Source: SAR202 cluster bacterium
Lineage (GTDB): Bacteria; Chloroflexota; Dehalococcoidia; Lucifugimonadales; VXLM01
Assembly: GCA_022448725.1 (NCBI GenBank)
Contig: JAKUTR010000020.1
Location: 1 to 40,372, forward strand
Direction of reading: 5' to 3'
Length of the DNA stretch: 40,372 bases
The position numbers and the translations under genes are program-made. Shown here piece after piece: positions 31,934 through 32,619 of the stretch. Each line of letters begins with the position of its first letter. The stretch's first letter is position 1. The notes under the pieces are model-generated. The model ran no database searches. It saw only the letters and a list, made by a program, of their open reading frames with translations, and was not told the DNA's origin.

Positions 31934-31962
31934 TTGACAACGAAATTCGTCAGACGTATAGT
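31934..31962 (+). promoter_or_regulatory. Near-consensus promoter of the first zinc-ribbon gene
   Basis: TTGACA (31934-31939), 17 bases, TATAGT (31957-31962). This is the best sigma70-type match in the window. The start site would be near 31969, giving a ~55-base leader. The rest of 31753-31933 shows no gene I can support. Confidence 0.8.
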
Positions 31963-31976
31963 TGTCTGGTTTGAAA

Positions 31977-32020
31977 GAATGACGATAAGCGTCATTTAAA
32001 GTAGCAAAGGAGAAATGACG
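31977..32020 (+). promoter_or_regulatory. Two mutually exclusive hairpins around the zinc-ribbon ribosome binding site
   Basis: Three segments are seen. AATGACG (31978-31984) pairs perfectly with CGTCATT (31990-31996) around ATAAG. The same CGTCATTT (31990-31997) also pairs perfectly over eight bases with AAATGACG (32013-32020). The second hairpin holds the AAAGGAG ribosome binding site (32006-32012) in its loop, three bases before the ATG. Only one hairpin can form at a time. At the DNA level, the first pair is also a 7-5-7 dyad just past the start site, so an operator for a repressor is an alternative. Confidence 0.6.
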
Positions 32021-32022
32021 AA

Positions 32023-32229
32023 ATGGTTACGGCTGTTGGTTTCAAGGCGTGTCCCAGGTGTGGAGGTGATGTCCACACGAAGGCTGATATGTACGGTTCT
32101 TACCGCGAGTGCTTGCACTGTGGTCATGTATCGGATATTCCGACTCCTCGCGCAAAGTTCGCTTGGACGAAGGGTCGACTTAAACCAGGTAGGCCTCGAA
32201 AGAGTGCGACCAAGAGGGACGCTGCTTAG
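32023..32229 (+). CDS. Small zinc-ribbon protein
   Basis: The 68-residue protein has two Cys-x2-Cys knuckles, CPRCGG (about 10-15) and CLHCGH (about 30-35), 16 residues apart, the layout of a zinc ribbon. The C-terminus is basic (RLKPGRPRKSATKRDA, a GRP-R AT-hook-like patch), so nucleic acid binding is plausible. AAAGGAG lies ten bases before the ATG. A second ATG eight bases earlier, in another frame, starts an overlapping frame that runs into the terminator, which I do not call. The gene has a private promoter, leader and terminator, so it is a monocistronic, probably highly expressed unit. Function unknown. Confidence 0.75.
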   Translation: MVTAVGFKACPRCGGDVHTKADMYGSYRECLHCGHVSDIPTPRAKFAWTKGRLKPGRPRKSATKRDAA

Positions 32230-32256
32230 ACGTAAGACATACGTTAATAGCGAAGT

Positions 32257-32293
32257 AAAAACAGCACCCCCGACCATCGGGGGTGCTGTTTTT
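32257..32293 (+). terminator. Strong intrinsic terminator after the zinc-ribbon gene
   Basis: AAAAACAGCACCCCCGA (32257-32273) pairs perfectly over 17 bases with TCGGGGGTGCTGTTTTT (32277-32293) around a three-base loop, followed by TTTTTT further on. This is the strongest terminator in the window. Confidence 0.92.
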
Positions 32294-32367
32294 GTTTTTT
32301 GATAGGTTGTAGAGACAAAATGTTGAAAAACTAGATACATAAGAACTTTATGAAAGGAGATCATTCT

Positions 32368-32619
32368 ATGGCTGTAACTCTAATAGATGAGGAGCAAAGC
32401 TTAATTGGTCCAACGTGCAAGCATCAGTGGATGATTGCTCCTCCTAACGGACCTACCAGTTCTGGTAGTTGCCGCCTCTGCGGAGACAAACGCGATTTTG
32501 TTAACTACACAGAGAAGACTACGTGGGGATACAAGGTATCTTTAGAGGATCTTCGTCGTAAGGAGCGAATTGGAACTTCCACGGATCAGGTTCGAAAAGA
32601 TGCCTTGACGGTAAATTAA
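32368..32619 (+). CDS. Small Cys-rich protein, likely metal binding
   Basis: The 83-residue product starts MAVTLIDEEQ after AAAGGAG eight bases upstream; an earlier ATG at 32350 lacks such a site. The possible metal ligands are C-x-H in PTCKHQW (about 17-19) and C-x2-C in SCRLCGD (about 35-38), a half zinc ribbon with a His. The C-terminal half has a basic, helix-prone stretch (LEDLRRKERIG). I do not recognise the family. It lies just after the zinc-ribbon gene but behind its terminator, so it needs its own promoter, which I could not identify. It converges on cofE. Confidence 0.65.
   Translation: MAVTLIDEEQSLIGPTCKHQWMIAPPNGPTSSGSCRLCGDKRDFVNYTEKTTWGYKVSLEDLRRKERIGTSTDQVRKDALTVN

Follow-up and report, generated by a model that had tools for sequence, protein, structure and literature searches.

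What is the inverted repeat in the leader of a tiny zinc-ribbon gene of a SAR202 cluster bacterium for, and does it act in the RNA or in the DNA? Within the window, by which we mean the whole stretch of 40,372 nucleotides that was analysed, three short segments upstream of this gene can form two mutually exclusive hairpins. Segment 1 (AATGACG, 31978-31984) pairs with segment 2 (CGTCATT(T), 31990-31997) as hairpin 1, or segment 2 pairs with segment 3 (AAATGACG, 32013-32020, forward strand) as hairpin 2, with the Shine-Dalgarno-like AAAGGAG (32006-32012, forward strand) between its arms. The sequence-only reading had taken this arrangement for an expression switch, and the three segments, the AAAGGAG and the ATG start codon at 32023 are all where it had placed them; the gap between hairpin 2 and the ATG, however, is two bases and not three.

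The gene itself (32023-32229, forward strand) encodes a protein of 68 residues with the motif CPRC...CLHCG, the basic tail KPGRPRK and the C-terminal sequence DAA. It is preceded by a near-consensus sigma-70-type promoter, TTGACA-N17-TATAGT (31934-31962, forward strand, 11 of 12 matches to consensus), and followed by a strong intrinsic terminator (32254-32296, forward strand) with a 20-pair stem, a loop of 3 and a T-rich tail, both as described earlier; the sequence is consistent with the picture of a self-contained and putatively well-expressed zinc-ribbon gene with a basic tail. A comparable GC-rich hairpin could be read directly from the sequence 3' of the zinc-ribbon gene in L002 and L004. 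At 32350-32619 the window also encodes an 89-residue cysteine-containing protein (CKHQW...CRLCG) without a Pfam match, and in L005 and L014 a protein resembling it lies between the zinc-ribbon gene and the next minus-strand gene.

The best reading of the leader, in our judgement, is that it carries one of two operators of a single dimeric DNA-binding regulator and not an RNA switch, a preference which comparison among relatives suggests and which we hold with about as much confidence as doubt. An operator dyad with a third half-site had been offered earlier as a fallback, and it is the better fit, with a conserved pair of half-sites 42 bp apart. Putative operator 1 (CAACG-AAATT-CGTCA, 31938-31952, with the core palindrome ACGAA-A-TTCGT) lies in the promoter spacer and is conserved in the three sister species G001-G003, which together with the window species make up the four genus members of our leader alignment. 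Putative operator 2 (AATGACG-ATAAG-CGTCATT, 31978-31996) consists of segments 1 and 2 and falls about 10-28 bases into the inferred transcript. Segment 3 may be an extra half-site or otherwise a coincidence; relatives have GTGACTCA at its position, and only TGAC is conserved.

One argument for paired operators comes from the half-sites. In the window the right halves of the two operators, both CGTCA, stand at 31948 and 31990, that is, 42 bp apart; in the sisters the right half-sites of both operators are TTCGTAAC, again 42 bp apart, although the alignment keeps this distance only with two one-base gaps that offset each other, one in the promoter part and one in the leader. The pairs are thus CGTCA/CGTCA in the window and TTTCGTAAC/TTTCGTAAC in the sisters (TTCGTAAC in G001): half-sites differ between the lineages and match within each, and the half-site sequence has therefore changed at both places together. 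A five-base match at the 42-bp offset occurs in 0.7% of shuffled leaders. Further support comes from the promoter motif TTGACAACGAA[A/T]TTCGT. All four genus members share it exactly, whereas the leader has largely diverged, and a scan of 250 genomes of the order found no further copy free of mismatches, its exact form being confined there to this gene. Related dyads between the -35 and -10 boxes are present in two members from other families, L013 (TTACTGATTTCGTAA) and L015 (TGACGAAATTCGTAG). A pattern of this kind is the trace to be expected of one DNA-binding protein shared among these genes. With a score of at least 9 of 10, the dyad T[G/T]ACG-N5-CGT[C/A]A precedes 3 of the 15 members with the same kind of tail (the window gene, L013 and L015) and none of the 94 others, and none of 500 shuffle sets reached three, an enrichment that is partly circular because the window had served to define the motif. 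Finally, hairpin 1 is not kept as an RNA structure, which also argues for a role of the repeat in the DNA.

How could such a pair of sites work? We hypothesize that the leader inverted repeat acts at the level of DNA, as the second of a pair of operators separated by about four helical turns, and that one dimeric DNA-binding protein, most simply a repressor, would occupy both; binding, repression and dimeric state are all inferred. Operator 1 would fill the spacer between -35 and -10, so that a protein bound to it would stand in the way of RNA polymerase, and operator 2, just past the inferred start site, would either block elongation or permit cooperative or looped binding. The RNA hairpin would then be a by-product of the DNA dyad. 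Two phased inverted repeats, the first between the -35 and -10 boxes and the second just past the start, are likewise the arrangement of dimeric repressors acting on tandem operators; unlike such systems, the window's genome has no regulon copies. The two similar, helically phased and conserved repeats that tandem operators call for are present, but the 42-bp argument extends over only two independent lineages, the window species and the G001-G003 cluster, and in the sisters the leader site has a degenerate left half (ATACT).

The nature of the supposed regulator was approached from several sides. Beside the zinc-ribbon gene no regulator candidate was found. In the 2.09-Mb genome of the window TGACG-N5-CGTCA occurs once, in the window leader, so that a regulon of this motif was rejected; each sister genome has 12-15 copies. 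Other copies of T[G/T]ACGAA-N-TTCGT[C/A]A were followed as a possible route to the regulator and set aside, low-mismatch matches in the four genus genomes being mostly in coding sequence. When the idealised palindrome was sought across the order, the exact matches clustered in family f29, with unrelated neighbours that named no transcription factor. Two genera of this family, g74 and g71, have as many as three copies of the exact palindrome TTACGAAATTCGTAA in a genome (L213-L222), mostly outside long open reading frames and with differing neighbouring genes. A Zur-type box, in which we take the half-sites to stand in the opposite order, was considered for the dyad and rejected.

Alternatively, hairpin 1 might be an ordinary 5' leader stem-loop, protecting the mRNA or keeping the ribosome site open without any switching. 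We regard this as unlikely. It agrees with the predicted dominance of hairpin 1, which takes up about 97% of the full-leader ensemble at 37 C, and 19 of 82 family leaders have some perfect hairpin, 6 bp or longer, immediately ahead of the ribosome site, against 5.4 in shuffles. Comparable hairpins are, however, carried by 3 of 16 control leaders, that is, 19% of this small set against 23% of family members, so that the hairpin is not special to the family and a family-wide conserved leader hairpin was rejected. Moreover, hairpin 1 is missing from all three sister species, where four of its seven pairs are broken and none has changed on both sides, and a plain stem-loop would leave the operator pattern unexplained. 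Six distant members (L014, L089, L091, L093, L121 and L133) have strong perfect hairpins before the ribosome site, of unrelated sequence.

Could the 7-bp dyad and the repeated 8-mer be a functionless coincidence? The window contains 34 perfect 7-bp hairpins with loops of 3-10, against 21 expected, so that they are common and hairpin 1 alone is unremarkable; the exact dyad is missing in the sister species, and compared with its shuffles the whole leader is only slightly more stable (z = -1.38, with 17 of 200 shuffles equally stable), which is not unusual. The triple arrangement, counted as a dyad followed by a third copy within 30 bases, is a different matter: it occurs twice in 40 kb, whereas 0.07 would be expected from Markov sequences, in which it is some 30 times rarer, and a repeat-plus-dyad of the leader's kind is unlikely to arise by chance. 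The matching of half-sites at 42 bp in both lineages also speaks against coincidence, and on balance we find a functionless origin doubtful.

The expression switch survives least well, and we consider it highly improbable. In this reading hairpin 2 would mask the ribosome site, and a signal from a metal, a protein or the temperature would tip the balance towards hairpin 1, much as leader switches that sequester the Shine-Dalgarno sequence, such as riboswitches and RNA thermometers, use two exclusive hairpins of which one can enclose the ribosome site. Unlike in those systems, the hairpins of the window are not conserved, hairpin 2 is predicted to be a minor form, and Rfam has no family above its gathering score anywhere in the leader. 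Taken separately, the two hairpins are indeed equal in computed energy, at -6.9 kcal/mol each. In the full leader at 37 C, however, hairpin 2 is left with about 2-3%, and with some coding sequence included its predicted share is 2% in the window, 2-3% in G001 and 5-9% in G003. Hairpin 1 would presumably also form first in transcription. In silico, warming to 60 C brings hairpin 2 up to 31%, contrary to simple heat-induced opening. The AAAGGAG has a predicted mean unpaired probability of 0.65 against 0.71 in shuffled leaders, values that are alike and make it no less accessible; in G003 it is predicted to be strongly paired, with a partner differing from that of hairpin 2.

The best evidence for the switch is that hairpin 2 keeps six of its eight pairs in the sisters, two of them through changes on both sides, with two pairs broken. 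Four of the six kept pairs are invariant, however, and of the four variable pairs two still hold, which is about the rate at which random letters would pair. Hairpin 1, the alternative state, shows no double changes at all in these four sequences. With effectively only two lineages, the covariation neither proves nor firmly excludes hairpin 2.

The zinc-ribbon gene is one of a large family, widespread in the order. Relatives of the 68-residue protein are present in 151 of 197 genomes of the order, with 1-6 copies each, and scattered ones occur in the rest of the phylum (32 of 251 genomes); a named relative belongs to Dehalococcoidia bacterium UBA2160. A search of genome and viral contig collections for closer relatives gave one distant match, and none in the viral contigs. 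At curated cut-offs the protein is claimed neither by Pfam (best match YhfH, 18.2 bits against 27) nor by NCBIfam (best match 21.6 against 32), and Lar, YhfH, LysW and other named zinc-ribbon families were rejected on these sub-threshold scores. A profile search of the PDB with the protein gave nothing useful, and a single-sequence AlphaFold model with a pLDDT of 64 supports only a small beta hairpin. The invariant residues of the family are C10, C13, G15, D16, D22, G25, C30, C33 and G34.

A link to heat shock emerges from the promoters of other family members. A perfect HspR-type site, TTGAYA-N7-TRTCAA, is found in 34 of 82 non-redundant upstream regions, for the most part with an hspR gene adjacent, and practically never in shuffles, usually with TATAAT 17 bases further on, and the site occurs together with an HspR-like open reading frame in 41 of 110 fetched stretches. 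Tiny zinc ribbons often stand beside a gene for an HspR-like repressor, with a perfect HAIR-type operator that encloses the -35 box (for example L147, L146 and L020-L029). The published HspR operator HAIR is CTTGAGT-N7-ACTCAAG (PMC7464140); the CTTGACA-N7-TGTCAAG of the paralogues shares its 21-bp layout, with the -35 box inside and hspR adjacent. With both a HAIR-type repeat and hspR nearby, these other paralogues are, by their sequence, candidate members of an HspR/HAIR regulon. The identity of HspR rests on the NCBIfam model NF047375, which the protein of L154 matches with 105.0 bits at a cut-off of 105; that of L020 scores 98.6, just below. The window's own genome has an HspR-type site before hspR-grpE-dnaK (L154, G000:C14:4540), with no zinc-ribbon gene seen beside it; the sister genomes have such a gene at the equivalent site.

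The window gene itself differs from these paralogues in having no HAIR site and in not adjoining hspR. The best match to TTGAYA-N7-TRTCAA upstream of it has 4 mismatches, and HspR control of this gene was rejected for want of a HAIR-type site at its promoter. Nor does an HspR-type site precede any of the 13 non-redundant members of its paralogue group, a group defined by the tail motif PGRPRK or similar and not by a tree.

The C-termini of the family provide a second hint. Of 106 distinct family proteins 96 end in alanine, 73 of them in AA and 18 in VA, while the tails are otherwise divergent and alanine makes up 14% of the preceding 12 residues; the DAA of the window protein lies at 32218-32226. 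An Ala-Ala carboxy terminus serves as a signal for ClpXP in both the ssrA tag and sigma-AntA (PMC7142297), and the Ala-Ala end common in the family is shared with these degrons, as it is with the genome's own tmRNA tag (DKEQLALAA, ending LALAA). ClpX is present in the genome of the window. In ending in Ala-Ala or similar, the family C-termini may be described as resembling a ClpXP degron. It is tempting to suppose that the zinc-ribbon protein, with its AT-hook-like tail KPGRPRK and Ala-Ala degron, itself binds both operators and represses its own gene, which would make it a short-lived autoregulated zinc-ribbon regulator with sister copies under heat-shock (HspR) control, but we give this very little credence.

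The leader would be an ordinary case of promoter and operator; of wider interest is the family to which the gene belongs. A tiny zinc ribbon without a name occurs in roughly three quarters of the genomes sampled from an order of Dehalococcoidia, and its frequent HspR neighbour and HAIR-type operator, with ends that nearly always resemble a protease tag, point to a role in heat shock or protein quality. Judged from these sequence features, the family would be an unrecognised and probably short-lived part of the way in which these mostly uncultured bacteria respond to heat shock or maintain protein quality.
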